64,000 bases of DNA from Planctomycetota bacterium (lineage in GTDB: Bacteria > Planctomycetota > OFTM77). Shown here piece after piece: positions 10,782 through 62,127 of this stretch. The notes beneath the pieces are model-generated. The model did no database searches. It saw nothing but the letters and a program-made list of their open reading frames with translations, and was not told the DNA's origin. A program made the position numbers and the translations under genes. The stretch covers positions 1 to 64,000 of the forward strand of contig JAJDCO010000004.1 in NCBI GenBank assembly GCA_029260795.1, read 5' to 3'. Position 1 is the first letter of the stretch; the number at the start of each line of letters is the position of its first letter.

Positions 10782-10792
10782 TGATCGCGAGG

Positions 10793-12656: not shown

Positions 12657-12730
12657 GTTCTGCGACTCCGGGCGGACCAGCTTCGGTGCGGGCGCTTCCG
12701 CGAGCCCGCCTCGCCGCCCACCATAAGAAA

Positions 12731-12756
12731 AGCCCCCTTCCCGAAAGAAGGGGGCT
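12731..12756 (-). terminator. Intrinsic terminator of the M36-like peptidase gene
   Basis: A perfect 10-bp stem pairs AGCCCCCTTC (12731-12740) with GAAGGGGGCT (12747-12756) around a CCGAAA loop. On the minus strand it is followed by TTTTCTTATGG. It lies 32 bp beyond the peptidase stop codon. Confidence 0.88.
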
Positions 12757-12788
12757 CCTCGAAGTGAGATCGAATCAGGAGGTGACGA

Positions 12789-43125: not shown

Positions 43126-44859
43126 TCAGTCGGACAGGGTGACGCGCAGTACTTCTTCGAGGGAGGTCTTCCCCTTGATGGCGCTGAGAATGCCGCAGCG
43201 CCGCAGGGTCAGGAGCCCCTCGTCGAGGGCCGCTCTCTTGATGTCGAGGGCAGACGAGCCGTCGACGATCAGGCGCTTGACCCGATCCGTCATCGGCATC
43301 GTCTCGAGCAGGGCGAATCGACCGCGATACCCGGCATTGCAGCGCGAGCATCCATGCGGTCGGAAGAGCGTGAACTCCTCCACGAAGTCTTCATCGATGA
43401 AGCCGAGCTGGCGGAGACGCTCTTCAGGAATCTCGATGGGCTCACGACACTCGGCACAGAGGGCCCGCGCCAAGCGCTGAGCCGCGATCAGGACTACCGA
43501 GGAGGCCACCATGAACGGGTCCAAGCCCATGTCGACCATTCGAGTCACGGTGCTCGGAGCATCGTTGGTGTGAAGCGTCGAGAGCACGAGGTGGCCCGTG
43601 AGGGCCGCCTTGACTGCGATCTCGATCGTCTCACTGTCGCGAATCTCACCGATTAGGACCGTGTCGGGGTCCTGACGCAGAATCGATCGCAGGGCATTGG
43701 CGAAGGTCAACCCTCGCTTGGGATTCACCGGCACCTGGTTGATGCCCGTGATCTGGTACTCGACCGGGTCCTCGACGGTGACCAAGTTGGTCCCGTCGCT
43801 CATGATCTCCTTGACGGCGGCATAGAGCGTCGTCGACTTTCCGGAGCCCGTGGGACCGGTGACGAGGATCATGCCGTAGGGATTGGCGATCGCGTGTGCG
43901 AAGTCCTCGAGGCACTTGGGCTGGAAGCCGAGCCCGGCGAGCTGCAGCGACACCATCGTGGCATCGAGAATACGCAGCACGACCTTCTCGCCATGCACGA
44001 CGGGCAGGATCGAGACGCGAAAGTCGATCTGGCGGCCTTCGGCTCGCACCTGGAACTTGCCGTCCTGGGGCTTGTGCTTCTCGGCGATGTCGAGGTTCGA
44101 CATGATCTTGATGCGAGAGACGATCGCGGCTTGCAGATTCTTGGGCGGGTTCAGTGAGTCCTTGAGAATGCCATCGACTCGGTAGCGCACTCGAACGCGC
44201 CGCTCGAAGGGCTCGATGTGAATGTCGCTCGCGCCCTCCTTGATCGCCTGGAAGATGATCAAGTTGACCAAGCGGACGACGGGGGAACCCGACTCGGCGA
44301 CGTCGGTCACGTCCAAGTCGTCCTGGCGCTGGTTGGGATTGCTGAGCTCGACCTCGGGATCCATCATCCCTTCGAGCAGCTCCTCCACCTCTTGCCGACC
44401 CATACTGTAGCCCTTGCCGATCGCGTACTGGATCGTCGCAGGCGTACTGATGACGGGCCGGATCTCGCAGGTCGTGAGGATGCGCAGATCGTCGAGCTTC
44501 ACGATGTCGAAGGGATCACCGATCGCCACCGTCAACATCTGCCCGATCTTGCCGACCGGAAAGACGCCATACTCGGTGGCAGTGTCCTGAGACATGACCT
44601 CGAGCAGCTCTCGCTCGAACTCGATCTTCTTGAGGTCGATGGGTGGAAAGTTCGTCGCCCGCGCGATCTCGGCGATCAGAGGAGCCTCGTCGACGAGCTT
44701 GTCTTCGACCAACACCGTGCTCAGGTGCTTCTGGTCGCGACTCGCTCGCTCGATCGCCGCCTCGATCTGGTCTTCGCCCAGTATCCCGCTTCGCGTCAAG
44801 ATGGCCTTCAGACGGTTGTTGAATCCCGCCATGTTGGCCGTGGCATTTGCCCCGCTCAC
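43126..44859 (-). CDS. pilB: Type IV pilus assembly ATPase PilB (GspE family)
   Basis: This 577-residue hexameric ATPase would power pilus extension. It has an N-terminal MshEN/T2SSE_N region (about 10-145), a middle domain with SDIHIEPFERRVRVRYRVDG, Walker A GPTGSGKST (from 335), Walker B TVLIGEIRDSETIEIA, the His box TGHLVLSTLHTNDA and a zinc site formed by CAEC and CSRC in the C-terminal part. The start is a GTG with GAGGAAAC upstream; an ATG nine codons later has no Shine-Dalgarno. The N-terminal RLxxxLxxxG-type repeats resemble those that bind c-di-GMP in MshE, which is inference. Confidence 0.95.
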   Translation of the reverse strand: MSGANATANMAGFNNRLKAILTRSGILGEDQIEAAIERASRDQKHLSTVLVEDKLVDEAPLIAEIARATNFPPIDLKKIEFERELLEVMSQDTATEYGVFPVGKIGQMLTVAIGDPFDIVKLDDLRILTTCEIRPVISTPATIQYAIGKGYSMGRQEVEELLEGMMDPEVELSNPNQRQDDLDVTDVAESGSPVVRLVNLIIFQAIKEGASDIHIEPFERRVRVRYRVDGILKDSLNPPKNLQAAIVSRIKIMSNLDIAEKHKPQDGKFQVRAEGRQIDFRVSILPVVHGEKVVLRILDATMVSLQLAGLGFQPKCLEDFAHAIANPYGMILVTGPTGSGKSTTLYAAVKEIMSDGTNLVTVEDPVEYQITGINQVPVNPKRGLTFANALRSILRQDPDTVLIGEIRDSETIEIAVKAALTGHLVLSTLHTNDAPSTVTRMVDMGLDPFMVASSVVLIAAQRLARALCAECREPIEIPEERLRQLGFIDEDFVEEFTLFRPHGCSRCNAGYRGRFALLETMPMTDRVKRLIVDGSSALDIKRAALDEGLLTLRRCGILSAIKGKTSLEEVLRVTLSD

Positions 44860-44884: not shown

Positions 44885-45949
44885 TCAGTAGCGGCGGAAC
44901 ATCCGCTTCAAGTCCTCGGTGTCATTCGATCGCGCCAACGCGTCGTCGTAGCTGACGAGGTTGGCGGAGTAGAGGTCGTAGAGGCATTGGTTCATCGTCT
45001 TCATCCCCAGCTTCGCGCCGGTTTGGATGATCGAGTTGATCTGGTGGGCCTTGTCGTCGCGGATCAGACTGCGAACGGCCGTGTTCGCGATCAGTACCTC
45101 GCAAGCCAACACCCGGCCCTTACCACCTGAGCGCGGCAGGAGCTGCTGGCAGAAGACCGCCTGCAAGCTGAACGAGAGCTGGGTGCGGATCTGAGCCTGC
45201 TGGTGAGCCGGAAAGACGTCGACGATCCGGTTGATCGTCTGGACCGCGTCGCTCGTGTGCAGCGTCGCGAAGGTCAAGTGACCCGTTTCCGCCAGGGTGA
45301 GGGCCGACTCGATCGTCTCCGCATCGCGCATCTCACCGATCAGGATCACGTCCGGATCTTGACGCAGCACCGATCGCAGAGCCGCCCCGAAGTTGTGCGT
45401 GTCGGAGCCGATCTCGCGTTGATTGAACAGACTGTTCTTGTTGCTGTGGACGAACTCGATCGGATCCTCGATCGTCACCACGTGGCAGTTGCGGCTCTGG
45501 TTGATGTGGTCGACCAAGGCCGCCAACGACGTCGACTTGCCCGAGCCCGTCGCGCCGGTCACCAGGACCAGGCCCTTGGGGATCTGGCAGAGGTTCTGGC
45601 AGACCTTGGTGGGGAGGCCCAGGTCGTCGAACGACTTCACAGTCGTGGGAATCATTCGCATCACGGCAGCCACCGAGCCGCGCTGCATGAAGACGTTGGT
45701 GCGGAATCGGCCGATGTTGCGGACCGAGAACGCGAAGTCCAGCTCCAACGTCTTCTCGAACTTGGCGATCTGCTCGCTCGAGAGGATGCTGTACACCAAC
45801 TTCTGCGTCATCTCCGACGTCAGCACGCCATACTCGGTGTTCACCAGCTTGCCGTCGATGCGGATCTTCGGCGGTGAGGAGGCCGAGATATGCAGGTCGC
45901 TGCCCCCTCGTTGGAGCATCACGTTCAGCAGCTCTTCGATCGAAACCAT
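44885..45949 (-). CDS. pilT: Type IV pilus retraction ATPase PilT
   Basis: This 354-residue protein opens with the PilT-type IEELLNVMLQRGGSDLHIS. It has Walker A GATGSGKST (132-140), the Asp box VVTIEDPIEFVH, Walker B VILIGEMRDAETIESAL, the His box TGHLTFATLHTSDA and AVRSLIRDDK, matching the PilT hallmark AIRNLIRE. It would drive pilus retraction and so twitching motility or DNA uptake. It is the first gene of the leftward pil unit and lies 25 bp before pilB. A GGGAAGAA precedes the ATG. Confidence 0.95.
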   Translation of the reverse strand: MVSIEELLNVMLQRGGSDLHISASSPPKIRIDGKLVNTEYGVLTSEMTQKLVYSILSSEQIAKFEKTLELDFAFSVRNIGRFRTNVFMQRGSVAAVMRMIPTTVKSFDDLGLPTKVCQNLCQIPKGLVLVTGATGSGKSTSLAALVDHINQSRNCHVVTIEDPIEFVHSNKNSLFNQREIGSDTHNFGAALRSVLRQDPDVILIGEMRDAETIESALTLAETGHLTFATLHTSDAVQTINRIVDVFPAHQQAQIRTQLSFSLQAVFCQQLLPRSGGKGRVLACEVLIANTAVRSLIRDDKAHQINSIIQTGAKLGMKTMNQCLYDLYSANLVSYDDALARSNDTEDLKRMFRRY

Positions 45950-46823: not shown

Positions 46824-48839
46824 TCAGTGTGCCTCTTCTTCCTTGGAGGCCTTGTAGGCGGCCACGATCTTCTGCTGCTCCTGCGGCGGAACGATGTCGT
46901 AGTGTGAGAACTCCATGGAGAAGTCCCCTTCGCCGTGCGTGATGGAGCGCAGCTCGGTCGAGTAGTTCACGACCGAGGCGAGCGGTACCTGAGCCTTGAT
47001 CATCTGCATGTCGCCGACGGTGTCCATGCCTTGAATGCGTCCGCGGCGCGAGTTGAGATCGCCGGAGATGTCGCCCATGAAGCGCGACGGAACCGCGATC
47101 TCGAGATCCATGACCGGCTCCAGCAACACGGGCCGCCCCTTCTCGAAGCCTTCCAGAAACGCCCGACCAGCGGCGAGCTTGAAGGAGAGCTCGTCCGAGT
47201 CGACGTCGTGGTACTTGCCGTCGTAGAGCTCGACCGCACAGTCGACGACTTCGCAGCCTGCCAGTGGACCCTCGGTCATCCGCTCGTGAATGCCTTTGTC
47301 CACGGCCGGAATGTACTGGCGCGGAACCGAGCCGCCGACGATCTTGTCGACGAACTCGTACCCGGCTCCACGCTCGCGCGGCAGCAGGCGAATGTACACC
47401 TCACCAAACTGCCCCCGACCACCGGACTGCTTCTTGTGGCGGTGGTGCGCTTCGGCAGCGGTGGTGATCGTCTCCTTGTAGGGAATCTTCGGCATTCGGG
47501 TCGTTATCTCGACGCCGAATCGCCGCTTCATGCGCTCCATGACGACATCGAGGTGCATCGAGCTCATGCCGTTGATCAGCATCTCGCCGGTGTTTGGATC
47601 ACGGTGAGACATGAAGCCCGGATCCTCGCTGGATATCTTCGTGAGCGCGGTGCCGATCTTCTGCTCGTCGCCACGACTCTTGGGCTCGGCTGCCAGAGTC
47701 GCCATCGGCTTGGGAAGGTCGACCGGCTGGAAGCGAACGATGGTGTTCGGATCGCAAAGGGAGTCGCCGAGCTCGAAGTCCTCGATCTTCGAGGCGGCCA
47801 CGATGTCACCGGCCACCGCGCGATCGATGTGCACCTGCTCCTTACCCTGCATCCGGAGCAAGTTGCTGACCTTCTGCGGCTTGCCGATGCGGACGTCGAG
47901 AACCATGTCATCGGTCCCGACTGAACCGGAGAAGACGCGGAAGAAGCTGAGCTTCCCGACATACGGATCGCTGAGAGTCTTAAAGACGAAGGCGCTGAAC
48001 GGAGATCCTTCGTTGCAGGTCAGGGTTGCCGTGTCTTCCCCTTCGGCGCCCTGGAGGACCTGGCGAGGGCTCCCGGCATCATGGACTGGTGCAATCTCGA
48101 CGATCGCGTCGAGGAGCTGCTCGACACCGATGTCACCCGTCACGCTGCCACACAGAACCGGCACGACGTTGCCCTGGGCGACGGCCTTGCCGAAGGCACC
48201 GCGAAACTCCTCGTCGCTGATCTCCTGGCCTTCCAGGTAGCGCTCCATGAGGGCGTCATCCGCTTCGACCGTACGTTCGACCAGTGTCTCCTTCACGGTG
48301 GCAGCAGCTTCTCCACTTCCATCGGCGAGGACGCTGACGACTCCCGAGAACGACGCGGCCGCCCCTTCCGGCAGGACGATTGGGACGCAACGATCACCGA
48401 AGGCCTCTTGAATCGCCGCGATGCTCTCGTCGAAGGAGGCGTTCTCGCTGTCCATCTTGTTGAGGAAGATCAGACGCGCGACACCTTCTTCTCCGCACCG
48501 CTCCCAAAGCTTTCGGGCATGAAAGCTGACCGGGCCTCCGGCAGAGATGACGAACACGGCCGTTTCGACCGCGGCGAGGCACATGTAGGCCTCGCAGGCA
48601 AAGTCTGGATATCCCGGCGTGTCGAGGACGTTGATGAGCTCCTTCTTCCAGCTGGCATGCAAGATGGAGCTCGCGAGGGAGTGATGCCGCTCCTTCTCTT
48701 CGGGCTCGAAGTCGCTCAGCGACGACTTGTCGTCAACGCTCCCCGCGCGCGTCGCCTCCCCTGCCTTGAAGAGGATGAGGTCGATGAGGGAAGTTTTCCC
48801 TACAGAGGCGGGACCGATCAACGCCAAGTTCCGAGCCAT
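46824..48839 (-). CDS. Elongation factor G-like translational GTPase paralogue
   Basis: This 671-residue protein has the EF-G domain order. The G domain shows a variant P-loop LIGPASVGKTSL (usual EF-G is GHIDAGKTT), switch-region ERHHSLASSI, DTPGYPDF (usual DTPGHVDF) and LNKMDS. Domain II follows, then YKETITTAAEAHHRHKKQSG and GGRGQFGEVYIRL in domain IV. The C-terminal EF-G_C part has PVLLEPVMDLEIAVPSRFMG, DLNSRRGRIQGM and TELRSITHGEGDFSMEFSHY. It is therefore the EF-G-like family that occurs beside canonical FusA. It may act in translocation under stress or in recycling; the role is unsettled. It is monocistronic. Confidence 0.88.
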   Translation of the reverse strand: MARNLALIGPASVGKTSLIDLILFKAGEATRAGSVDDKSSLSDFEPEEKERHHSLASSILHASWKKELINVLDTPGYPDFACEAYMCLAAVETAVFVISAGGPVSFHARKLWERCGEEGVARLIFLNKMDSENASFDESIAAIQEAFGDRCVPIVLPEGAAASFSGVVSVLADGSGEAAATVKETLVERTVEADDALMERYLEGQEISDEEFRGAFGKAVAQGNVVPVLCGSVTGDIGVEQLLDAIVEIAPVHDAGSPRQVLQGAEGEDTATLTCNEGSPFSAFVFKTLSDPYVGKLSFFRVFSGSVGTDDMVLDVRIGKPQKVSNLLRMQGKEQVHIDRAVAGDIVAASKIEDFELGDSLCDPNTIVRFQPVDLPKPMATLAAEPKSRGDEQKIGTALTKISSEDPGFMSHRDPNTGEMLINGMSSMHLDVVMERMKRRFGVEITTRMPKIPYKETITTAAEAHHRHKKQSGGRGQFGEVYIRLLPRERGAGYEFVDKIVGGSVPRQYIPAVDKGIHERMTEGPLAGCEVVDCAVELYDGKYHDVDSDELSFKLAAGRAFLEGFEKGRPVLLEPVMDLEIAVPSRFMGDISGDLNSRRGRIQGMDTVGDMQMIKAQVPLASVVNYSTELRSITHGEGDFSMEFSHYDIVPPQEQQKIVAAYKASKEEEAH

Positions 48840-49209: not shown

Positions 49210-49932
49210 TCAGTACAGCACGACCTCGACGCGACGATTACGCTTCTTTCCCGAATCGTTGGAGTTGGCAGCCACCGGCTGGTGCTGTCCGTACCCGACG
49301 ACATTGAAGCGATCGCTCGGAATGCCGGCTCGCTCGAGCGAATCGCGCACGGTGAGGGCGCGCTCCACGGAGAGGTGCCAATTCGAACGGAACTTCGACT
49401 TGCTGATCGGGTCGTCGTCGGTGTGCCCTTCGACGCTGATGCGTTTGTCGGGGAACTTCAACCGCACTTCTTCAGCGATGCGGGTCAGGTTGCCCCGTCC
49501 CGAAGCCGTCAGTTCCGCCTTTCCGGAAGCGAAAGTGATCTCGGAAGGCAGGACGATCGCCAGCTGTCCGCGGCGCTCGATGACCTCGAGTCCATGCCCA
49601 GCGAGATTGTCGGCCAAGGCGCGCCGATCCCGCTCCAGGTCCGAAGGAGCCACGGCCACGGCCGGCTGGACGGCGGCCGCCTTCTTTGCGAGCTCCTGAC
49701 GGAGCTGCTCGCTCTGACGGCGCGCATCGGCGAGCTGCCGCTCCCAATTCGCACTGCCGCCGCGCAGCTCATCGACCTCCAGCTCGAGCTGGAACTTGTC
49801 CTCGTTGAGTGCCTCGATCTGGCGATCCTTGTCGAGGATGATGCCTTCGTAGTCCGTCGTGGCGCAGCTCGGCAGCAACAGCAGCACGAGAGCACCCAGG
49901 AGCAGACCACCCTGATTCTTGATGAAACTCAT
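49210..49932 (-). CDS. OmpA-family peptidoglycan-associated lipoprotein
   Basis: This 240-residue protein has a lipoprotein signal with lipobox LPSC (Cys23), a coiled coil (about 30-85) and an Ala/Val-rich linker. The OmpA-like domain contains ITFASGKAELTASGRGNL, VEGHTDDDPI, LSVERALTVRDSLERAG and GYGQHQPVAAN, ending KRNRRVEVVL. The domain binds diaminopimelate-type peptidoglycan, so the protein would tether the outer membrane to the wall, like Pal or MotB-type proteins. The ATG at 49932 has GGAGG 5 nt upstream and is preferred to a TTG four codons earlier. It lies 70 bp downstream of the prepilin peptidase gene on the same strand. Confidence 0.9.
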   Translation of the reverse strand: MSFIKNQGGLLLGALVLLLLPSCATTDYEGIILDKDRQIEALNEDKFQLELEVDELRGGSANWERQLADARRQSEQLRQELAKKAAAVQPAVAVAPSDLERDRRALADNLAGHGLEVIERRGQLAIVLPSEITFASGKAELTASGRGNLTRIAEEVRLKFPDKRISVEGHTDDDPISKSKFRSNWHLSVERALTVRDSLERAGIPSDRFNVVGYGQHQPVAANSNDSGKKRNRRVEVVLY

Positions 49933-50002: not shown

Positions 50003-51082
50003 TCAGCGGAACAGATCCGGCCACGTCTTCGTGACGAACGTGAGAATCTCCGGTTCGAACAACAGCACCAAGATGGCGCCGAGTGAGAGATACGGCCCGA
50101 AGGCCAAATAATGATCCTTCGTGAAAAGCATTCGCAAGAGCCCGAGCAGCGAGCCGAGCACGCAGGCGAGGAAGAAAGTCAGAAGCGCCGCCCGCGCTCC
50201 GAGGAACCCACCCACCATCGCCAGGTACTTCACATCGCCGAAGCCCATCGCCTCCTTCTTGAAGGCGAGGCTGCCCAGCAGCCCGACGCCGAGAAGAAGG
50301 CCGCCGCCCACGCCAATACCCATCGCCGATGACATCAAAGCCCCGGCGCTACGATCGGGAAGCAGCAAGGCCAACAAGCCGGCGACGACTCCCACCAGCA
50401 CTCCTGGCCAGACCGCGCCGAGGTTGCGCGCGGGTCGGACCGAAGGTTGAGAGACTTGGCCTTCTTCCTCGAGCCATTCCGCAGAGGCATGCACGCGCAG
50501 CACGATGATCGTCGCTCCCGCTCCGATCAGCCCGACCACCAAGGGCATCCAAGTACCCCAGGTCGAGTCGGCCACGAGCTGTTCGCCCAGACGATCGGCT
50601 TGGATCAACGGACAGAGGATGCACGCCAGCGGGGCGAGCACCAGCCCGGAGAGCGTAAGCTCGTCGGGCAGGATGCGATGGTCGATGTCGATGAACGTCG
50701 CCGCGATCAGCACCGCCACGAAGTAGAACCACACGAACAGGCGCAGCCACTCTTCAACGACGGGCCCCTCGACCAGGGACGGCACCATCCAGCGCTCGTA
50801 GATCAGCACGAACACGAGGCCCGTCAGCAGCTCGACCAGTGGATAGCGCCACGAGATCGATGCCTTGCATCCTCGGCAGCGCCCACGCAGGAGCAAGAAG
50901 CTCAGGACGGGCAAGTTCTCGTGCCAACGAATCGCTCGACCACAACTCGGGCAAGCCGAACGCGGTCGCACGAGCGAGGCGCCTTCGATCGGGAGGCGAT
51001 GGATGACGACGTTCAAGAAGCTCCCGATGATCAGACCCAGAGCTCCGAAGAGCACGTCACCGAAGACTCGCAACGAGTCCAT
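50003..51082 (-). CDS. pilD: Prepilin peptidase / N-methyltransferase PilD
   Basis: This 359-residue polytopic aspartyl protease has the PilD layout. The N-terminus is GSFLNVVIHRLP, then a cytoplasmic zinc loop with CPSC and CRGC. Catalytic Asp residues lie in the ATFIDIDHRILPDELT region and in GFGDVKYLAMVGGFLG. It cleaves the leader of type IV prepilins and methylates the new N-terminal Phe, so it should process the two pilins at 39117 and 40005. The central hydrophilic insert (about 205-222) is longer than usual. The gene lies 3 bp after the acetyltransferase gene. Confidence 0.95.
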   Translation of the reverse strand: MDSLRVFGDVLFGALGLIIGSFLNVVIHRLPIEGASLVRPRSACPSCGRAIRWHENLPVLSFLLLRGRCRGCKASISWRYPLVELLTGLVFVLIYERWMVPSLVEGPVVEEWLRLFVWFYFVAVLIAATFIDIDHRILPDELTLSGLVLAPLACILCPLIQADRLGEQLVADSTWGTWMPLVVGLIGAGATIIVLRVHASAEWLEEEGQVSQPSVRPARNLGAVWPGVLVGVVAGLLALLLPDRSAGALMSSAMGIGVGGGLLLGVGLLGSLAFKKEAMGFGDVKYLAMVGGFLGARAALLTFFLACVLGSLLGLLRMLFTKDHYLAFGPYLSLGAILVLLFEPEILTFVTKTWPDLFR

Positions 51083-51085: not shown

Positions 51086-51673
51086 TCAGCCCTCCTCTCG
51101 GAGCTCGGGGACTTGATCGACGATGCGATAGCGACGTCCGCAATCGGAGCAGCGGAATCCCTTCGGATCGTCCTCGGCCGGAGCCCCGCACTGGCAGACC
51201 CAGCCCTGCCGGCGTGCCGGTGACCCGACCATGAGCCAACGCGCATCGACGTCTCGTGTCACGACGCTTCCCGCGCCGATCAACGCTTCCTCGCCGATGC
51301 GCACTCCGCACAGGATCGTCGCGTTGGCTCCCAAGGTCGCTCCCCGTCCCACCCGAGTGGTGGCGAACTGATCCCGACGCGAGATGGCCGCCCGAGGGTA
51401 CTTCACGTTCGTGAAGACCACCGAAGGTCCGCAGAAGACCTCGTCCTCGAGCTCGACTCCCTCGTACACCGAGACGTTGTTCTGAATCTTGACTCGTTCT
51501 CCGATCCGCACTCCTCGGCCGATGAAGACGTTTTGACCGAGCTGAGTTCCCGCACCGAGGCGAGCTTCCTCCATGATGTGGCAGAAGTGCCAAACCCGGA
51601 CACCCGGACCCAGGCGACAGCTTTCCGCCACGACCGACGAAGGGTGGATGAAGACGTCTTCACGCGACGTCAC
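51086..51673 (-). CDS. Left-handed beta-helix acetyltransferase with C-terminal zinc ribbon
   Basis: This 195-residue protein has hexapeptide repeats from residue 8 to about 155 (FIHPSSVVAESCRLGPGVRV, QLGQNVFIGRGVRIGERVKI, TLGANATILCGVRIGEEALI). They are close in style to WbpD/WlbB UDP-2-acetamido-3-amino-glucuronate N-acetyltransferases (VFTNVKYPRAAI is typical). The last 40 residues hold CxC and CSDC pairs in a zinc-ribbon-like unit (CQCGAP, then FRCSDCGRRYRI), which that family usually lacks. The start is a GTG with a purine-rich leader. It is the upstream partner of pilD. Confidence 0.85.
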   Translation of the reverse strand: MTSREDVFIHPSSVVAESCRLGPGVRVWHFCHIMEEARLGAGTQLGQNVFIGRGVRIGERVKIQNNVSVYEGVELEDEVFCGPSVVFTNVKYPRAAISRRDQFATTRVGRGATLGANATILCGVRIGEEALIGAGSVVTRDVDARWLMVGSPARRQGWVCQCGAPAEDDPKGFRCSDCGRRYRIVDQVPELREEG

Positions 51674-51818: not shown

Positions 51819-54239
51819 TCAGCGAGAAAGGTCGATGATGATGTCGTCGACCGAGAGCTGAACCGGGTCACCAATCGTCAAGTCGTCGACCTCGAACTCG
51901 ATGCGGACCGCCAGGAAGCGGATGGCGTCGGTTCCGAGCCGGTCGGCTCCCCGAAACTCGCCTTCCGGCGGTGCTCCTTCGGGTGCCTCGGCGCCCGTCC
52001 AGACGAAGGCTCGGCAGCGGCCCCCCACCTCTTGAGACTGGAGTTGGACCTTCAGGACGCGCCCGTAGTCCTGGCCCAGATCGATGACCGGAGTCGTGTA
52101 CCTCGCCACATTGGTTGAGGGGTCCTGACGGGTCCGCCCCGGTTGCCGGGTCTGACCTTGAGGTCTTTGGAAGATCCAAGGGTCCGGCTCGAGGATGCTC
52201 CGAGTCGGTGCGATCTCACCCTCGAAGTCTTCGAGCTGGATCCAGCCGGGTGAGCCACCCGCAGTACCACTCTGCGCCAAGACCTGCGCTCCATCGATCG
52301 TCAGTCCGCCGGCTGCCGAGAGCAACAGGCCACCGGCTCCGCCGCCGCCGCCGCCGCCTGCTTCCGGTCCGCCCGGCGCACCGACACCTCCCCCGGCTCG
52401 AAGCTCACCACCATCGATGCGGATCGCCCCTCCCGCGATGAGCACGGCGACACCCCCCCCTCCTCCACCGCCACCTCCGTTGGCGCTCGTGCTTCGAGAA
52501 GCGCCACCACCGCCACCACCGCGACCACCGCGGAGTGCAGCTACCGCTCCCAGTGAATCCACAACCGATCGTCGTTGGCCGTCGATGAGACGCTCCGTCC
52601 ACCCGTCGATCCAGGAGCTCCGCGGAGAGCCGGAGGGCGCTGGCTCTCCGGCGAGTCCCTCGCTCCCTCCCGCCCCTCCGGTGGCGCGGCGATCGCCCGG
52701 CGCGTATCCCGTTTCGCCAGAAGTCGGCGCAGCGATCTCGAAGAGTGGCGAGATTCCCCCCTCGCCGCCCCGGCCACCGCCGGGTCCTCCCAAGCCTCCG
52801 AACGGCCTTTCGCCACGCCGGGCATCTCCGATGCCGAGCTGCCCGGGCTCACCGGAGACATCGAGGCGCCCGTGGACGACGATGTCCTCGCGCGCTCTCA
52901 GAACCAGAGGGCGGCTACCCGTCGCTCGGACCTCGACGCCGAAGGGGATCTCGATGCGATCGAAATCGAAGCGTCCACCGACCACCTCCTCGATTCCGCC
53001 GCTCGCCGTCACGAAGGCCTGCTCATCCGTATTCAAGACGATCGAGGTCTCAGGTCGCCATTCTCCGAGTGTCAGCGCGGCCGGCACTCCAGGCTCCCAA
53101 AGAAGCTCGAGCACGCCGTTGCCGCTCGTTTCGAGGCGCCACCCCGATGCGGAGACTCGAGAGCTTTCGCCTCGAGTCCGGAGAGCGCGTCCTCGGTCGA
53201 GCGCCGACAGCACGGGCTGACCTTGCTCACCTTCGAGAAACCCGAGCGTCAGGCGGCTTCGCCCGCGAGGAGTCGTCGGAGTGACAACGAGCAGGCAGCC
53301 GAGCTGGTCTCGAAACGGGACGATCGGAAACCCGCTGAGGTCGCGGATGCTGGACTCACCGGACTCATCCAGAACGAACTCGAAGGCCAGTGTGAACGGA
53401 CGGATGGCGGACTGGAATCCGTCCAAGGGACGAACGGTCAAGATCGATCCGTCGTCATCATGCGAAAGGATCACCTCGGCCGACACACTCCGAGGCGTCG
53501 CCTCATCGATCACCCAAACCTGGATGTCCTTCGAGCTCAACGGCTCCTCACCGCGCGCAACCGGGAGCAGGTGCTTGTTGAAGTGGAAGTCGAGACCATG
53601 TCCGAGAAACGACTCGCTCAGCTTTCTATCGAGAGGGATGCGTTGACGCCAGGCGATCGGCTCATCCCGGATGCTCAGCGACACGATCGTCGCTCGCTCG
53701 TCGAGTCGAGGATCCCAATACAAGCGGTTGACGTCATCATCGGCTCGCGTTCGGAACGAGAACTCGTAGCTTCGGTCCAAGGGACGGTAGTCTTTGGTGA
53801 AGACACCCGTGAAGTGGGGGAAGCCCCGGACGATGACGCGATACTCGGTATCCGGCAGAAGGCCACCATCGCGCAGGGTGCGATGTGCCAGGAGGGGCTC
53901 GAAGGTCACGCGCTGAGGTTCCCGCACGAACCTCCCTCGGGCGAGGCGGCCATCGCGAGTCTCCACGCGAATGGAGTCTGCGTTCAGAGAGAAGGCCCCG
54001 ACGTCTTCGGAGAATTCGATGACGAGGGGCTCGTTGAGCCTCAGATCCTGGAGACCGTGAAAGTCGGGTGGTCTCGGCAGAAAGAGGGCGCTCGGTCGCT
54101 CCGCCGCCTCTTCACTACATCCTGGTAAGCCAACGACCAGCGCTACGGCGGTGAAGCCCGCAAGACTGAAAGATCGATCGGCGATGAGGAGTCGCTCGAC
54201 CCGCCCCATCACGTCCCTGATCCAAGATCCCGCGCTCAT
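51819..54239 (-). CDS. Giant Gly-rich lipoprotein with SbsA-type Ig-like domain (copy B)
   Basis: This 806-residue predicted lipoprotein has lipobox LPGC (Cys41) after a longer basic leader. A domain with LVIEFSEDVGAFSLNADSIR is the SbsA-like Ig type. The shared family module is present (IVLNTDEQAFVT, GRFDFDRIEIPFGV, GSRPLVLRAREDI, GRLDVSGEPG). Gly-rich tracts follow from about residue 470 to 665, with runs of 7-9 Gly between short hydrophobic strands such as GGAIRIDGGEL. A beta-rich C-terminus ends VDDIIIDLSR. An AAGGAAA precedes the ATG. It is the last of three tandem family members. It contains an 8-base C run (52453-52460). Confidence 0.78.
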   Translation of the reverse strand: MSAGSWIRDVMGRVERLLIADRSFSLAGFTAVALVVGLPGCSEEAAERPSALFLPRPPDFHGLQDLRLNEPLVIEFSEDVGAFSLNADSIRVETRDGRLARGRFVREPQRVTFEPLLAHRTLRDGGLLPDTEYRVIVRGFPHFTGVFTKDYRPLDRSYEFSFRTRADDDVNRLYWDPRLDERATIVSLSIRDEPIAWRQRIPLDRKLSESFLGHGLDFHFNKHLLPVARGEEPLSSKDIQVWVIDEATPRSVSAEVILSHDDDGSILTVRPLDGFQSAIRPFTLAFEFVLDESGESSIRDLSGFPIVPFRDQLGCLLVVTPTTPRGRSRLTLGFLEGEQGQPVLSALDRGRALRTRGESSRVSASGWRLETSGNGVLELLWEPGVPAALTLGEWRPETSIVLNTDEQAFVTASGGIEEVVGGRFDFDRIEIPFGVEVRATGSRPLVLRAREDIVVHGRLDVSGEPGQLGIGDARRGERPFGGLGGPGGGRGGEGGISPLFEIAAPTSGETGYAPGDRRATGGAGGSEGLAGEPAPSGSPRSSWIDGWTERLIDGQRRSVVDSLGAVAALRGGRGGGGGGASRSTSANGGGGGGGGGVAVLIAGGAIRIDGGELRAGGGVGAPGGPEAGGGGGGGAGGLLLSAAGGLTIDGAQVLAQSGTAGGSPGWIQLEDFEGEIAPTRSILEPDPWIFQRPQGQTRQPGRTRQDPSTNVARYTTPVIDLGQDYGRVLKVQLQSQEVGGRCRAFVWTGAEAPEGAPPEGEFRGADRLGTDAIRFLAVRIEFEVDDLTIGDPVQLSVDDIIIDLSR

Positions 54240-54545
54240 CGCTATTTCCTTGCTTGGCCGAGCCTCGCCGTTCCCGATGCGTTCCGGCCGCGAACGGGAT
54301 CACGCGGAGGGCGCCGGGGCCCCTGGTGAAGCGCCCGTTCGAGCGACTCGCTCCACGTCCGAGCACTCCCGACGGCTCCGAGTATCGAAGGTACTCCAAG
54401 GCCTCGCCCCGTGAAAGAGACTGAATCTTGGTCGCCGAAGGCATGCCGATCCTTCCCACGAACCGCGAGAACCAAAAAGACCGGGCGCCGCTGGATTCCC
54501 AGCGGCGCCCAGTGAGAGTCTGGCTCTCGTGAATCGTCGGTCCGC
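54240..54545. other. Intergenic region (306 bp) between lipoprotein copies B and C
   Basis: It holds the terminator of copy C at 54483-54510 and should contain the promoter of copy B. No gene or RNA was seen. Confidence 0.6.
54483..54510 (-). terminator. Intrinsic terminator of lipoprotein copy C
   Basis: A perfect 12-bp stem pairs GGGCGCCGCTGG (54483-54494) with CCAGCGGCGCCC (54499-54510) around an ATTC loop. On the minus strand it is followed by GGTCTTTTTGG. This is a clear rho-independent terminator 35 bp past the stop. Confidence 0.9.
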
Positions 54546-57353
54546 TCAGAAGCGCACGCCGAAGTCGAGACGGTCGATCAGAGGACGCGAGGCCGTCAGG
54601 TTCACCTGGCCATCGAGTGCTGTATTGAAGCGGGCCCGGAAGCGCACGAAGCGCTTGCCGTTGAGATCGGAGATGTCGCTGGTCCAGACATCCGGGCCAG
54701 GCACGATGGTGGTGGCGTCCGGCTTGCCGGTTCCGCGGGGCTCGAGCTCGTCCGCAGCTTGCCACTCGATCACGACCTGCGTGTTCGGAGCGATGAAGTT
54801 CGTACGATTCGTGCCGTTGACATCCGAGTTGATGGCGAAGTACGTCGTGTCGAGCACGTTCCCGGCCGCATCGGTCAGAACGATGCCCGAGGCATCGACG
54901 CCGGAGAAATCGAACTGCGGCCAGCCGGGTCCCTTGCGATCGGTCTCCCCAGTGAAGATCCAACCGGAGCGAGCCGACGAGAGATTCGAGAACTCACTCA
55001 GATCGCGAGAGAGGGGCATGGGAGTGCGGTTGATGCACTCACCGGGCTCTTTCGGGCAGTCGAGGGCAGCGCAGTCGTCGAGGTCGACGTACCACTCCGG
55101 GTCCTCGTTGAACTCACCCCCGACCACGTCGCTGAAGGCCGGAATGAGGATGGCGCCAGCGATCTGCCGATTCGGACCTTCGATCTGAATCACACCGGAG
55201 CCGCCCCAGCCACCGACGTACGTGTTGTTGCTCACCTGTCCGGGCTGCCCCCCCGTGGGGTCACCCGAGGTGAAGCCACCACCGACGCTCAGAATACCAG
55301 CGACGTTGATGGTGCCGAGGGAGTGCAGGATGATGGTGCCACCGGCACCGCCGCCACCGCCGCCGCCCCACTTGCTCTCGCCGTTGTTCGAACCGCCACC
55401 GCCAGCTCCGCCGGAGCAATCGACGATCGCGTTCTCTTCGACGATGATGTTTCCGAGCGCGGCAAGGTAGACCATGCCGCCACCACCACCACCGCCAGCG
55501 CCGGAGTCGTCGGTGTTCGAGGTGGCAGGCGGCGAAGGCTCACCGAGCTGATCACCACCGCCACCACCGCCTTGACCGCCTCCTGCATCCGCGACATCGA
55601 ATTCGCCGCCGCGTCCGTAGAAGTTATTGGTCTCGTCGGGATCCTGGAATTGGACGCCACCGGCCGGGCCGGCGGGAGTCCCCTTGCCACCGGTCTCGCC
55701 GTCGGCCTGAAGGCAGCCGTTGGCGTCCCGGTTACGGTTGTTGCGATTGCGGCCCTGCGTCAAGTGAGAGCCACCACCGCCACCACCGCCTGTCGGATCG
55801 GAGCTGCTGCCAGGAGGTCCGGCCGTCATGCCGCCCTGCCCACCGGCGCCCTGCGTTTGGAAAGGGCCGCGCCCCGGATCACCGCCATTGACGGACTGGA
55901 TGCCGGAACGCCCGGAGTCATGCGGGCTTCCGTTTCCTCCATCGCCACCCGAAGGTCCGGCCTTGCCGCCGTTCGCGACCTGCCCACCGAGGTTCGGGAC
56001 GGTAAAGAGGCTCCGCCCCGATGCACCTGAGGCGTTGATGGCCGTTGGCGTCTGAGGCGTCGGGCCCGCTGCGATTCGGATCGACTTCGTGGCGTAAATG
56101 AAGAGCGGCCGGGAGCCGACGACCCTCAAGGACGATCCGGACTCCATGACGAACTCGGTAAAGTTGAACACGCCTCCGTTGACAGTGACGAGGCCGTTGT
56201 TCGTCAGCAAGAGCTGCGAATCGGTGTCGAAGACGACGTTCTCGTTGAAGTTCAGCTTGAACGGACCGAGGGCACCGGTACCCGGGAAGGGCCGAGAGGC
56301 CTTGAGCGCACGGACGCCGCCGGTGCTCCACTCAGCGATCGCATAGCCATCGATCGTGCCACGCCGGTCGAAGCGACCCTGGGAGTTGAAGCCTTCGGAG
56401 AAAGTATCCGGGAAGCCGTTCTCGCCGGAGTTGACGTTTCGCGTCCGGAAGGCGGTCGCGAAGTTGACGCCTCCGATGGCGGAGTTTCCTTCGCCGATGA
56501 TGTCGCGCAAGCTGTTCGCAAAGCGGACCTCGAGCTCCGTGTCGACAGGCAGGATGCCCGCGGGCCGGAGGACGATCCGAGTCTCCTCGACGTCATTACG
56601 AGCCAAGATCGGTGTCGTCGGGACGATTCTCTGACGGAACGTGTCCCAGAGAAAGATCGTTTGCTTGTTGATGTTGTCCGCGGTCGGCAGCAGTGGCTGA
56701 TTGAAGAAGACCTCGATCTCGAACGGAGCGTCCGAGAAGAGGTTGAGCGACTGATTGGCGGCGCCATTGAGAGGCGTCGTGCCGACGACCTGAGGCGGTC
56801 CGGCGACCGGATCATCAAAGATGGCCGAAAGAGGCGTGTTGGCGTCGATGTTGATCATCGAAAACCTCACCGTACCACCGGCGGCCAAAGCGCGGTCGCG
56901 TTGCGATCGAACCGTGCGCCCCGTCGAGCTGGAGGTTGCGAAGCGCACCTCGTACTCGTTGCCTTCCTTCAGTCCCGCGTCGCCGAACTCCGGCTCGGTC
57001 GGGAAGGTCGGGATGAAGCGCACAGTGGTTGGATCGAACGGGTCGAGGCGGAAGAAACCCGTCACCGGCTCGGAGTTGGAGAGATTCCGGAAGGTGACGG
57101 TCTCGAACGAGACCGTATTGATGTTCACGGGCTGGGAGAACTTGAGCGTGATCTCTCGGTTGAGAGGCAAGCTGGTTTGGCCAGCGACGTTGCTGAACTC
57201 GAAGGTCAGCGTTCCGTCACCGGGGCCACCGGCCTTTCCTCCGGAGTTGCTGCAGGCGCCGAGACCGGCTCCGAGAGTCGCAGCCAAGATCAACGCACCC
57301 CAGCGTCGGTTCCACCGAACCGCAGTGGTGGTGCTGAAGCCAATCGCTCGCAT
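54546..57353 (-). CDS. Giant Gly-rich lipoprotein with SbsA-type Ig-like domains (copy C)
   Basis: This 935-residue predicted lipoprotein has lipobox LGAC (Cys34). Two Ig-like domains of the SbsA type follow (ITLKFSQPVNINTVSFETVT and FEIEVFFNQPLLPTADNI). The shared module appears as VVFDTDSQLLLTNNGLVTV, GVFNFTEFVMESGS and GSRPLFIYATKSIRI. A Gly-rich region (about 480-770) alternates runs of 6-8 Gly with strands such as GNIIVEENAIVDCSGG. The C-terminal region contains DFSGVDASGIVLTD and ends SRPLIDRLDFGVRF. The start was set at the ATG before the lipoprotein signal. It is the middle gene of a tandem trio, with its own terminator. Confidence 0.8.
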   Translation of the reverse strand: MRAIGFSTTTAVRWNRRWGALILAATLGAGLGACSNSGGKAGGPGDGTLTFEFSNVAGQTSLPLNREITLKFSQPVNINTVSFETVTFRNLSNSEPVTGFFRLDPFDPTTVRFIPTFPTEPEFGDAGLKEGNEYEVRFATSSSTGRTVRSQRDRALAAGGTVRFSMINIDANTPLSAIFDDPVAGPPQVVGTTPLNGAANQSLNLFSDAPFEIEVFFNQPLLPTADNINKQTIFLWDTFRQRIVPTTPILARNDVEETRIVLRPAGILPVDTELEVRFANSLRDIIGEGNSAIGGVNFATAFRTRNVNSGENGFPDTFSEGFNSQGRFDRRGTIDGYAIAEWSTGGVRALKASRPFPGTGALGPFKLNFNENVVFDTDSQLLLTNNGLVTVNGGVFNFTEFVMESGSSLRVVGSRPLFIYATKSIRIAAGPTPQTPTAINASGASGRSLFTVPNLGGQVANGGKAGPSGGDGGNGSPHDSGRSGIQSVNGGDPGRGPFQTQGAGGQGGMTAGPPGSSSDPTGGGGGGGSHLTQGRNRNNRNRDANGCLQADGETGGKGTPAGPAGGVQFQDPDETNNFYGRGGEFDVADAGGGQGGGGGGDQLGEPSPPATSNTDDSGAGGGGGGGMVYLAALGNIIVEENAIVDCSGGAGGGGSNNGESKWGGGGGGGAGGTIILHSLGTINVAGILSVGGGFTSGDPTGGQPGQVSNNTYVGGWGGSGVIQIEGPNRQIAGAILIPAFSDVVGGEFNEDPEWYVDLDDCAALDCPKEPGECINRTPMPLSRDLSEFSNLSSARSGWIFTGETDRKGPGWPQFDFSGVDASGIVLTDAAGNVLDTTYFAINSDVNGTNRTNFIAPNTQVVIEWQAADELEPRGTGKPDATTIVPGPDVWTSDISDLNGKRFVRFRARFNTALDGQVNLTASRPLIDRLDFGVRF

Positions 57354-57415
57354 GGAGGCCTCCGTGCTGAGAGCTGTCCGGTTATTCCGGTCAGCGTCGA
57401 GTTTCGTTCTGAAGA

Positions 57416-57442
57416 GCGAGCCCGGATGGGATCCGGGCTCGC
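57416..57442 (-). terminator. Hairpin terminator of lipoprotein copy D
   Basis: A perfect 12-bp stem pairs GCGAGCCCGGAT (57416-57427) with ATCCGGGCTCGC (57431-57442) around GGG. It lies 27 bp beyond the stop of the gene at 57470. TCTTC follows on the minus strand. Confidence 0.7.
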
Positions 57443-57469
57443 GAGATGGCATCCGTCGACTCACTCGGC

Positions 57470-60439
57470 TCAGTTGAGCGGAATGAGAGAGTACGGCACG
57501 GCGAGGGAGTCGATTCCGGGCACCTGCTCGGTCTCGGGATTCGCCTTGAAGGTCAGGCGGAACATCAGCGAGACACGACCATCGAGGATGTTGTGGCTCG
57601 TCGACCATTCGGTCGGGTTCGTTCCACTACCGTCGTCGGCACCGCGGTACTCGACGTCGATCTGAGTACCGGTCGGCAACAACGCGAGATCGGGTTCGAA
57701 GACCGGAGCGTTCCAGTCGAGCTCGAATCCGGCCGGCGCACCCTCGAAGATCTCGAACCATGTCGACTCGGCCTTGGTCTCGACGATCTTGAAGTCGAAG
57801 CGATGGATGTAGATGGAGTTGTCACCCCACTGGTTGGTGTTGCCACCGGTTCCACCGGCTCGATCGAGGCTCCACGGATCACTGACGACGAAACCGGCCA
57901 TCCCAGCCGTGAAGATACGGAAGGCCGGATCGGCCCAGCCCTGAACCGAGATGAAGATCTTGTACCCGTTGTATCCACCGGCTGGCGACGCGGCGACCCC
58001 CATGTCGAGCAGAATGCTGCTGACGGTATTGTAGGGGAAGCTGCGGTCAAACTTCGGGAAGTCGACGCGGAAGGGGTTCGGCAAGTTGGTCGGGGGACGA
58101 ACCGAGTAGGTCCGGCCTCTGTCGATGACGGTAGTCGGGCTCGGCGGATCGTCCTTCTTGATGTTCTGCGCGAAGAACTGCTTCAGGCCGGAGCGCGGAT
58201 CGGTCAGGAAGCCACCCGAGTTGGTCTTGGTATTCGGGACCACGTGGGTGTGGGAGACGTCGATGCTGAATTCGTTCCAGGTATCTGCGAACACGACATC
58301 ACCGATCGGCGCCCAGGCGAGGCCGGTCATCGTCCATACCGAGCCTGAAGCACCACCGCTGCTCAGAATCGTGCGCGGCACGCAGTGCTGGATGCGGGCT
58401 CCATTCGGATTGAACGGCGTCTGGACACCCGGAGGGAAGTTCGGGGTGATGGCGGGGGCGCCGTCGGTCGGCGTGAAGTTCTCCAGGTCATGGCTCCAGC
58501 TGAAAACCGGGCCACCCTCGATCACGCTCGGCGGCGAGCTCTGGTTGTGGTTGTTTCCGACGATGTTGTTGTAGGTCGTGAGGTCATCGAAGGTCTCGAG
58601 AAACAGGCCACCCTCGATCGCTTCAATGTCTTCCTTCACCACGAAGCGGAAGCGAAGTCCTTCGAAACCGACCTCATCCGCGGAGAAGATCGTGTCGGGA
58701 AGACCCGTCCGGATGCCCCGACCGGCCAAGTCGGTGATTCCTTCGACCGGCGACGTATTCGGATTGTCGGTCCGCACGACCAGAATGTACTCACTGCCTT
58801 CGCTTCCCCAACCCTGCGGCTGCAGCGGCGGACGGAAGATGAACTCGGTGAGCGAGGCATTGCTCTCTACGCGGCCAAAGTAGGCATCGGCGGGGAACTT
58901 CGGATCTCCACCATTCTTGACACAGAACATGGTCGAGAACGGCCCGATGGACTCGGGATTCATCGGCTCGCTGAACCGCAAGTGAATGGCCGAGAAGTTC
59001 GGAACCTGCTCGACGATGTCATTCGTCGAGACGCGGTTGCGGTACTTGAACTCGATCAAGCTCAGGCTGCTCACGGCGCTCGGGAAGTTGAGAACACCTT
59101 CGATCTCACCCGTGTCGTAGTAGATCCGACCGCCCAAGGTCGTCCCGTAGCTGGCGAGGATCGTACCGCCTTGGACCATCCCGAACGGGAAGGTCACCAC
59201 GCCGCTGATGGTTGCTGTCGCGTAGTCGACCACACCCGTGCCACCGATCGAGCCGGCACCGTTGTCGGTCACGGTATTCGTCGGGTCATCGGGGTCCCGG
59301 AGGGTCAGTGATCCGGCAGCGATTGGCGCGATCGAAAGCGAGACGCCGGCGCCGAAGTCTTGGTTGTTGCCGTCCGCGGTCGCCTGGCCAGTATCTTCAC
59401 CCTCGATCGAGACCGGGGCGTTGATCAGGCCGTAGTCCGGGATGTCGTCGTTGTTGGCGTCGATCGGCTGATCGACGAGGCGATTGGGCAAGTTGCCCTT
59501 TTCGGTGATCTGCACCGAGCCCGGCACGACGGGAGTGCGTACCAGGAAGTTCGTGTCGTTTCCAAAGTTCACGACTCGCGAGTCGTTGCCGAAGATGTTG
59601 AAGTTCTCGACCGGCGCCTGAGCCTCGTCATCATTCGGCGGAAAGTCGAAGAACACGACATCGGCGATGTCGAACGGGTTCGGGAAGAGATTGCCGACGT
59701 ACTCCTCACCGAGACGCGTCAGGATGAACGGGTCGGTCGAGTCCGGCAGGTAGCCGCGTGACTTGTCGAAGTCGCCGCCGGAGCGGAACCGGATCCAAAT
59801 GTCCACCTGGCCCGACTCGACATCCACCGTGCGAGCCGTGACCGAGCGCCCCTTGGTGTTGCGCACGACCGAGTTCGCTTGGGTGGGGATCAGAATCTGG
59901 AGGTTCGAGGCGTCGGAGATGAAGCTCTTTGGCAGCCCTTGCGGGTTCAGCGGCAGCTCGGGGTTGGTGAGCTGATCAAACGATTCGATCGCGGGATCGA
60001 AGATCACGTCCCGGCCATTGACGATGTAACGGCCTCGGACGAGCCGAGAAGGCGCATCGCCGTCCCGGACTTGGATGGTGTTCGTATCCGCCGTCGCGGG
60101 GTTGACCTGATCGGAGAAGCGCAACAGCAAAGCCGCGTTCCGAGGAACGAACAGGTTACTGATGACGTTCGAATCCAAGGATCGGATCTCGGTCCCCGGA
60201 TCGATCACCTCGATCAGCTCACCCGTCGCGGGATCCAACGAGACCTCGCTATCCGGTGGCATCAGTTGATCGACGCCGTTGACCTTGACCAGGCGTCCGT
60301 AGAACACCGAGTTCAGAGTCATCGTGGAATCGGTGCCCGGTGCCGAGCTTCCGCTGCCGCTACTGCACCCCCAGACGCTCACGCTGGTCGCGATCGTCAG
60401 GAGAAGGGTGAATGCCCGTCTCATGCTCCAGTCCTTCAT
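57470..60439 (-). CDS. Giant lipoprotein with SbsA-type Ig-like domains (copy D, no Gly-rich region)
   Basis: This 989-residue predicted lipoprotein has lipobox VWGC (Cys25) and a Ser/Gly linker. At least two SbsA-like Ig domains are visible (ALLLRFSDQVNPATADTNTI and FSAIHLRFSEPMNPESIGPF). A central repeat-like region includes INAPVSIEGEDTGQATADGN and TISGVVTFPFG. A long beta-rich C-terminal domain contains SIYIHRFDFKIVETKAE and ends AVPYSLIPLN. Unlike copies A-C it lacks poly-Gly tracts and the GSxPL module. The ATG at 60439 follows AGGAGTGGAG; an ATG five codons later is possible. It is the first of the tandem trio. Function is unknown. Confidence 0.78.
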   Translation of the reverse strand: MKDWSMRRAFTLLLTIATSVSVWGCSSGSGSSAPGTDSTMTLNSVFYGRLVKVNGVDQLMPPDSEVSLDPATGELIEVIDPGTEIRSLDSNVISNLFVPRNAALLLRFSDQVNPATADTNTIQVRDGDAPSRLVRGRYIVNGRDVIFDPAIESFDQLTNPELPLNPQGLPKSFISDASNLQILIPTQANSVVRNTKGRSVTARTVDVESGQVDIWIRFRSGGDFDKSRGYLPDSTDPFILTRLGEEYVGNLFPNPFDIADVVFFDFPPNDDEAQAPVENFNIFGNDSRVVNFGNDTNFLVRTPVVPGSVQITEKGNLPNRLVDQPIDANNDDIPDYGLINAPVSIEGEDTGQATADGNNQDFGAGVSLSIAPIAAGSLTLRDPDDPTNTVTDNGAGSIGGTGVVDYATATISGVVTFPFGMVQGGTILASYGTTLGGRIYYDTGEIEGVLNFPSAVSSLSLIEFKYRNRVSTNDIVEQVPNFSAIHLRFSEPMNPESIGPFSTMFCVKNGGDPKFPADAYFGRVESNASLTEFIFRPPLQPQGWGSEGSEYILVVRTDNPNTSPVEGITDLAGRGIRTGLPDTIFSADEVGFEGLRFRFVVKEDIEAIEGGLFLETFDDLTTYNNIVGNNHNQSSPPSVIEGGPVFSWSHDLENFTPTDGAPAITPNFPPGVQTPFNPNGARIQHCVPRTILSSGGASGSVWTMTGLAWAPIGDVVFADTWNEFSIDVSHTHVVPNTKTNSGGFLTDPRSGLKQFFAQNIKKDDPPSPTTVIDRGRTYSVRPPTNLPNPFRVDFPKFDRSFPYNTVSSILLDMGVAASPAGGYNGYKIFISVQGWADPAFRIFTAGMAGFVVSDPWSLDRAGGTGGNTNQWGDNSIYIHRFDFKIVETKAESTWFEIFEGAPAGFELDWNAPVFEPDLALLPTGTQIDVEYRGADDGSGTNPTEWSTSHNILDGRVSLMFRLTFKANPETEQVPGIDSLAVPYSLIPLN

Positions 60440-60780: not shown

Positions 60781-62127
60781 TCAGGTCGTGCGCTCCAACT
60801 CGTACCCCTCGGCCTCGTACGCAGCCACGTCTTCGAAAGCCGTGATCTCCGTTCCCGCGATCGCCATGACGTCGTTCGACTCGGCCGGAAAGACCTTCAT
60901 CCGAGATCGGTCGCCCACGAAGGTCGCCGGACGCACCGTCTCGCAGTAGGCGCAGCGCAGTCGGAACGGCAGCCGCGAGACGACCTCGAACTCGGAAGGC
61001 AGGTAGCCGCCTTGCTCCGTGCGTGTGATGCAAGCTTCATTTCCGCAACGCAGGTGACCTAGGCCCGGGACGACGACACGCGCGCGCGGTGCGGCGGGAC
61101 GCTTCAGGGGCCTCTGCCCCAACAACACCGAGATCAATGCCATGCGGATCGGTACCCCGAGCTGCGCCTGTTGGAAGTACATCGAGCGAGGATCCCGGTC
61201 CAACTCGTAGGCGATCTCGTCTCGCCGAGGCAGCGGATGCATCACGATCGCATCTTGGAAGCCGGGACTACTCAGCACCGCCTCATTGACGCGCGGATAC
61301 GCCGCCGCTTCTTCACACGAGCCGAACCGCTCGCTCTGCGCCCGCGTCATGTAGACGGCGTCGATGTTCTTGATCAGTCGACGCTTTTGGGCCCGCGACT
61401 CGGCCGCGTCCGTGAACAGCGAGAGCTGATGAGGCCGGTTCGGCGTGATGTAGAACGCGTCCGCTTGCTCCACCAACGCGTCGAACTCGCCCCCTTGGAA
61501 CCGCTCGGGCTCGCAGCGGAACTCCCCCGCAAGCTTCTCCAGCACGTAGTCGGGCATCTCGAACGAAGGAGCCGGAATGCAGATGATGTTCGCGCTGAAG
61601 CGCGCCAAGGCGTAGGCCAACGAGTGAACCGTCCGGGAGTACTTGAGATCCCCGCACAGCACGACGTCCAGCCCTTCCAAATGGCCCTTCTGCTTCTTGA
61701 GCGTGTAGAGATCGCAGAGCGTCTGCGTCGGATGCTCGTGCCCCCCGTCTCCGGCGTTGATCACCGGAACATCGGCGAAGCTGGCGGCGACTCGCGCCGC
61801 GCCGGCCGCCGGATGCCGAATCACCAGCACGTCGGCGTAGTTCCCGCCCACCACGCGCACCGTGTCCGCCAGCGACTCCCCTTTCGATGAGGAGGAGTCC
61901 CGCATGTTCGCTACCGTGATCACGTTGCCACCCAAGCGGTGCATCGCCGACTCGAACGAAAGCCGGGTGCGAGTGCTGGGCTCGTAGAACAACGTCGCCA
62001 TGATGTGAGCGCGACACAGACTGCCGAAGCCGCGCATGTCGGCTGCGAACTCGTCAGCGACGGCGAACACCTGCTCGATCTCGTCGTTGGTGAGGTCGTT
62101 GATCGAGATCAGATCCCGTTTGGACAT
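60781..62127 (-). CDS. pyrB: Aspartate carbamoyltransferase fused to a PyrI-type zinc domain
   Basis: This 448-residue protein would make carbamoyl-aspartate in pyrimidine synthesis. Residues 1-340 are a catalytic chain: YEPSTRTRLSFESAMHRLGG (carbamoyl-phosphate site), SSSKGESLADTV, HEHPTQTLCDLYTL and VMHPLPRRDEIAYELD. After a 20-residue linker come Cys361 and Cys366 (CGNEAC) and Cys392 and Cys395 (CAYC), the same C-x4-C...C-x2-C pattern as the zinc domain of E. coli PyrI (Cys109, 114, 138, 141). The nucleotide-binding allosteric domain of PyrI is absent. A 50-residue tail follows. The ATG at 62127 is preferred to a 49-residue longer frame. Confidence 0.92.
   Translation of the reverse strand: MSKRDLISINDLTNDEIEQVFAVADEFAADMRGFGSLCRAHIMATLFYEPSTRTRLSFESAMHRLGGNVITVANMRDSSSSKGESLADTVRVVGGNYADVLVIRHPAAGAARVAASFADVPVINAGDGGHEHPTQTLCDLYTLKKQKGHLEGLDVVLCGDLKYSRTVHSLAYALARFSANIICIPAPSFEMPDYVLEKLAGEFRCEPERFQGGEFDALVEQADAFYITPNRPHQLSLFTDAAESRAQKRRLIKNIDAVYMTRAQSERFGSCEEAAAYPRVNEAVLSSPGFQDAIVMHPLPRRDEIAYELDRDPRSMYFQQAQLGVPIRMALISVLLGQRPLKRPAAPRARVVVPGLGHLRCGNEACITRTEQGGYLPSEFEVVSRLPFRLRCAYCETVRPATFVGDRSRMKVFPAESNDVMAIAGTEITAFEDVAAYEAEGYELERTT

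Follow-up and report, generated by a model that had tools for sequence, protein, structure and literature searches.

The genes that we call D, C and B belong to three distinct orthologous groups, all of them ancient, that keep a fixed order across dozens of Planctomycetota. They lie in the locus of a type IV pilus (T4P), and we propose, as a tentative reading, that their products are T4P-associated outer-membrane surface lipoproteins that may be adhesive or may form a coat. For the trio as a whole, we infer that the proteins are exposed at the surface, adhere and cooperate with the pilus.

A conserved gene order at the pilus locus

Three consecutive genes of 806, 935 and 989 residues had been predicted in the window (the whole stretch of 64,000 nucleotides analysed here), and they are indeed found there, adjacent and all on the reverse strand (Table 1). 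The host genome measures 8.1 Mb in 160 contigs, with the trio on contig C84. An alternative start of B, an ATG at 54209, would give a protein of 796 residues. A fourth lipoprotein gene, A, is encoded 28 kb from the trio; other genomes (G366, G342, G251, G269, G281, G203 and G374) also have related copies of C type near tatD.

Table 1. Features of the trio and its neighbourhood in the window (domain limits are residue numbers)
Feature	Coordinates	Strand	Remarks
Type IV pilin-like protein, second	39117..39818	-	N_methyl
Type IV pilin-like protein	40005..40703	-	N_methyl
PilC/GspF platform protein	41839..43074	-	T2SSF
PilB/GspE assembly ATPase	43126..44832	-	MshEN + T2SSE
PilT retraction ATPase	44885..45949	-	Pfam; orthologue lost in family f54
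EF-G paralogue	46824..48839	-	conserved member of the locus
OmpA-family lipoprotein	49210..49932	-	Pfam; end of B-PilD-OmpA unit
Prepilin peptidase PilD (A24)	50003..51082	-	Pfam
Hexapeptide-repeat acetyltransferase	51086..51673	-	separates B from PilD; lacking in most relatives
Gene B (P0001)	51819..54239	-	806 aa; lipobox at C41; N-terminus Ig-like and homologous to that of C; Gly-rich about 436-683; C-terminal beta domain
Intrinsic terminator between C and B	54480..54513	-	stem of 15 bp, tetraloop, T5; found repeatedly at the C-B junction of relatives
Gene C (P0002)	54546..57353	-	935 aa; lipobox C34; Big_5 Ig domains 46-165 and 186-300; beta region 350-440; Gly-rich about 437-728; C-terminal beta domain 785-935
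Hairpin after D	57415..57441 (approximate)	-	12-bp stem, no T-tract; z -2.5
Gene D (P0003)	57470..60439	-	989 aa; lipobox at C25; two Ig domains (about 95-245, about 470-600) with a lineage-specific insert between them (about 250-470); beta domains in the C-terminal half (645-989)
PyrB-type carbamoyltransferase	60781..62127	-	341 bp upstream of D, as a constant neighbour
Gene A (P0004)	22742..25432	-	896 aa; fourth Big_5/Gly-rich lipoprotein, C/B type

Searches in relatives first found the D, C, B order in another family as well. In the 20-kb neighbourhoods that we read, the full block, running from tatD through pilin, PilC, PilB, PilT, the EF-G paralogue, the OmpA lipoprotein, PilD, B, C and D to PyrB, MnmE and CoaX, is constant in families f1 (that of this genome), f30, f44, f81 and f60. 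The fixed order PyrB-D(-D)-C-B-PilD-OmpA-EF-G-PilT-PilB-PilC-pilin is that of a T4P locus. A scan of named genomes, with locus counts resting on ORF-plus-profile calls, gave 73 loci, all in Planctomycetota or in bacterial metagenome-assembled genomes that bear no lineage name. Two carriers have been cultured, Saltatorellus Poly30 (CP036434.1) and Rohdeia Pla163 (CP036290.1). The order is the same throughout these loci where the contig allows it to be followed. The clade carrying the trio is presumably the GTDB class UBA1135. The EF-G paralogue belongs to the pilus locus throughout, including in genomes that lack D. The hexapeptide acetyltransferase also adjoins PilD in G057, G013 and G026, and does not do so in most D-bearing relatives.

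A recent triplication was rejected as the origin of the trio, the orthologues of each gene keeping their order across families. The suggestion of an expanded surface family therefore holds for D only. The D tree shows repeated lineage-specific tandem duplications (e.g. L110, L124, L166 and L198) as well as an older split in f44/f81, and up to four tandem D genes are found in G147 (G147:C1:5112001-5148000; L119, L120). The D of the trio pairs in the tree with a paralogue from the same genome, on contig C35 (G000:C35:183976-186792; L070:7967-10855), which is 38% identical and stands alone, away from pilus genes.

Domain plan and predicted folds

A lipobox had been noted in all three genes, and each protein has one behind a signal peptide (...VSVWGC25 in D, ...GLGAC34 in C and ...GLPGC41 in B). 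Counted from the Cys columns of orthologue alignments, the lipobox Cys is kept by 36/36 B orthologues and by at least 90% of the C (49) and D (71) orthologues, so that the lipobox is no chance motif; with a signal peptide and a conserved lipobox Cys, D, C and B all class as bacterial lipoproteins. Distant C homologues, a tandem pair of C type in G018 (L067:6235-9447 and 10056-13337), lie away from the pilus locus and have a plain signal peptide in place of the lipobox. The C-terminal residue is Phe, Tyr or Trp in 46 of 69 distinct C orthologue sequences, often as ...PFRF; this aromatic ending could be of the kind seen in outer-membrane barrel proteins, or merely a domain's last strand.

SbsA/Big_5-like Ig domains had also been attributed to all three proteins. 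This is borne out for C and weakly for D; B gave no direct match and is linked through its orthologues and its profile. Judged by the Pfam gathering cut-off for PF13205 (23.6 bits), Big_5 is present in C in two copies (E 2.3e-11, 44.8 bits) and in A (38.8 bits), both above the cut-off, while the match in D falls under it (E 2.5e-3, 19.0 bits). The Pfam scan did not detect Big_5 in the B of this genome; 27 of 36 B orthologues match at an E of 0.01 or lower. The C and B profiles align over 379 columns (1e-32), from the lipobox through two Ig domains into the beta region. Between the D and C profiles, the common parts are limited to an Ig domain (E 2.8e-6), with the second Ig domain of D aligning to the first of C, and a C-terminal domain (E 1.4e-7) that is also weakly detectable in B (2.3e-5). 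These matches suggest a common plan consisting of a lipid anchor, Ig domains, a family-specific middle and a shared C-terminal beta domain. That D is a full copy of C is excluded by how little the two share.

Outside the Ig domains, no Pfam, NCBIfam or PHROGs family was found in the trio, the Pfam scans of C and D orthologues being run on 15 single members. A phage origin was rejected, PHROGs giving no match. By sequence, no solved structure was found for C alone or for the D profile. Pfam, NCBIfam, PHROGs and solved-structure profile searches placed none of the three in a characterised enzyme or adhesin family; such a placement is what the original prediction had named as refuting it. The PilY1 propeller PF05567 had no match in the trio (Pfam). 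PilY1 also went undetected in 21 genomes, a weak result in that the positive control gave no signal.

The Gly-rich regions reported for two of the trio are those of B (31% Gly over residues 456-690, with runs up to G9) and C (33% Gly over 440-725, with runs of G7); A also has one, and a scan of D found none. Among C orthologues, about 47 glycines within 440-725 are fixed at 90% or more, against a mean column identity of only 24%, which argues for a folded region and against simple low complexity. AlphaFold models this part of C as coil with short paired strands (pLDDT about 63-95 over 610-700). Among solved structures, the C profile matches the Gly-rich domain of Obg at a borderline E of 0.004-0.015, along with three weaker entries; composition can produce such scores, and the Obg match is thus no more than a lead toward a polyproline-II (PPII)-type fold. 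By fold, the region matches viral Gly-rich and 'collagen-like' models (BFVD), and no solved structure is among the PDB matches listed. Of the two folds initially guessed at, the polyproline-II bundle is tentatively favoured, on the modelled coil with its short paired strands and the borderline Obg sequence match. A beta-solenoid or right-handed beta-helix was set aside, since no solenoid is among the Foldseek matches listed (PDB, BFVD) and the DSSP string is without regular coils.

The full AlphaFold model of C, built with 49 orthologues (mean pLDDT 78.8, pTM 0.70), comprises two Ig domains, the beta region, the Gly-rich part and the C-terminal beta domain. Its Ig domains match LdtMt2 and the S-layer protein SbsC by fold (Foldseek, PDB), this Ig-fold similarity being all that the S-layer comparison returned. 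An L,D-transpeptidase was the top PDB fold match and was rejected as an identity for C, because only the Ig modules match and the YkuD domain is absent in the Pfam scan. The model of D (71 orthologues; pLDDT 69.5, pTM 0.67) is confident in its C-terminal half, which is beta-rich and has weak fold neighbours only, including the jelly-roll protein PHM (E 9e-4, TM about 0.2). D was rejected as a member of the PHM family on this TM score and because the copper ligands are not conserved: D has one near-invariant His only, and PHM requires several copper-binding His. The insert of D, modelled with low confidence, is found in this D and the C35 paralogue and is absent from the other D proteins first aligned; it holds two beta motifs that look alike, G-x-[IV]-x-Y-x-[TS]-G-x-[IL]-x-G-x-[VL]. 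On these models, the folds of the trio are predicted to be structural, not catalytic.

Predicted transcription units and co-variation with PilT

Hairpins had been noted after both C and D, and both are present; that after C is strong, ends in T5 and is a proper terminator (z -4.8), whereas that after D is without a T-tract. Counted over non-identical junctions, which are not phylogenetically independent and come from partly overlapping locus sets, hairpins of at least 10 bp occur in 11/65 D-C junctions (median gap 39 bp), and 19/34 C-B junctions have a hairpin, 13 of them with a T-rich tail. The B-PilD junctions have a median gap of 6 bp and hairpins in 2/41, the PilD-OmpA junction is also tight, and hairpins return in 19/32 OmpA-EFG junctions; the background inside ORFs is 6/159. 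The gaps and the placement of the hairpins suggest that the trio forms two transcription units, D-C and B-PilD-OmpA. From the sequence, we infer a layout of D(-D)-C, a terminator, B-PilD-OmpA, a second terminator, then EF-G and PilT-PilB-PilC, in which the C-B terminator would uncouple D-C from the PilD unit.

The PilT type of this locus occurs in each of the 39 strong-D genomes that lie outside family f54, and in 0/13 f54 genomes. The only PilT that the latter retain is of another kind, about 45% identical, and other PilB-PilT clusters remain there; the PilT, PilB and PilC of this locus are gone, and D and C are retained. In the three f54 loci read, B consists of a lipobox and two Ig domains. 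B is thus linked in evolution to PilT. D and C, by contrast, persist in f54 without the PilT/B/C set and so do not need it, and their survival is the strongest evidence against a pilus-linked reading of the trio.

This persistence (13/13 f54 genomes without the locus PilT) is what one would expect if D and C formed an S-layer-like or matrix-like lipoprotein coat of the clade, independent of the pilus, with B alone tied to it. The frequent duplication of D, the D-C transcription unit with a terminator at its end, and the Ig-fold matches to SbsC and LdtMt2 modules fit such a coat, but the position of D-C is constant beside PilD and PilT where families keep both, and we regard this explanation as somewhat doubtful.

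Across the phylum, PilT is found in 222/392 genomes and D in 73/392. Since PilT is widespread and D is not, D-C would seem to have joined an older pilus locus in this clade only. In 3/10 D-less genomes examined, the position upstream of PilD is taken by an Ig-type protein: a B homologue in G018, a weak profile match in G024 and a protein with a lipobox in G057.

Proposed role, alternatives and known counterparts

In the T4P-associated reading that we tentatively prefer, D, C and B would be exported by Sec and lipid-anchored in the outer membrane, projecting modular and mostly beta proteins to the surface. The Ig domains would form a stalk on the lipid anchor, carrying outward the family-specific middle, a putative PPII-type Gly-rich slab in C and B and jelly-roll-like sheets in D, and the common C-terminal beta domain would cap each protein. 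The trio is encoded at the T4P system and would most likely work with it. In keeping with an adhesive role, planctomycete fibres bind dextran (PMC5394234) and the T4P of Fimbriiglobus bind chitin, as cited in PMC11131199. B, as a member of the prepilin-peptidase/OmpA-lipoprotein unit, would be tied to the pilus machinery; D and C would be made as a pair, coating the surface and binding substrate, and so take the adhesive role that PilY1-type proteins have elsewhere.

Planctomycete crateriform structures and pili-like fibres have been described without assigned genes (PMC5394234). It is unlikely, in our estimate, that D, C and B supply the genes for these structures as the clade's own T4P/fibre surface apparatus, a lipid-anchored complex of giant adhesins replacing PilY1.

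More improbable still is that the jelly-roll half of D and the beta domains of C bind or cleave surface glycans and so feed macromolecule uptake. The dextran binding of planctomycete fibres fits this, as do the beta-rich domains modelled with high confidence in the C-terminal half of D, with their weak jelly-roll matches; yet the trio has no CAZyme or enzyme family match, D has a single near-invariant His against the several copper ligands of PHM, and no CAZyme cluster was seen at the locus.

We give equally little credence to conserved synteny devoid of a functional link, an old housekeeping order that includes surface lipoproteins of unrelated functions: EF-G, PyrB, MnmE, CoaX and TatD keep their places around the trio just as firmly, so that synteny alone is weak evidence for shared function, but the operon-like B-PilD and D-C gaps, the hairpins between units and not within them, the shrinkage of B where PilT is lost, and the Ig lipoproteins that can fill the slot upstream of PilD in genomes beyond the D clade speak against it.

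The locus offers candidate surface proteins, which are conserved across a planctomycete clade that is mostly uncultured and occur in two cultured strains, the latter making the proposed pilus link of the trio directly testable. The analysis also reveals two unannotated domains, a Gly-rich one with a fixed glycine pattern and a C-terminal one common to three ancient paralogues.

Several known systems resemble the trio in part. The Big_5 domain, scoring above or near the Pfam cut-off, is shared with Big_5/SbsA proteins by C, by A and by most B orthologues; however, Ig domains make up only about a quarter of each trio protein, and the remaining domains are without a Pfam family. The Gly-rich part recalls PE_PGRS and PGII domains and the N-terminus of Obg in its length, its fixed glycines and its coil modelled with good confidence; it differs in having beta strands interleaved in it, and the trio is non-mycobacterial and has no PE domain. 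The crateriform structures and pili-like fibres (PMC5394234) are surface structures of the same phylum that span the envelope, have fibres and bind dextran, although they were described in other orders (Planctopirus, Gemmata). The PilY1-type T4P adhesins (PF05567) resemble the trio in being very large, exported and encoded alongside pilus genes, and in the adhesive role proposed; where PilY1 carries a beta-propeller, the proteins described here are lipid-anchored and Ig-based.
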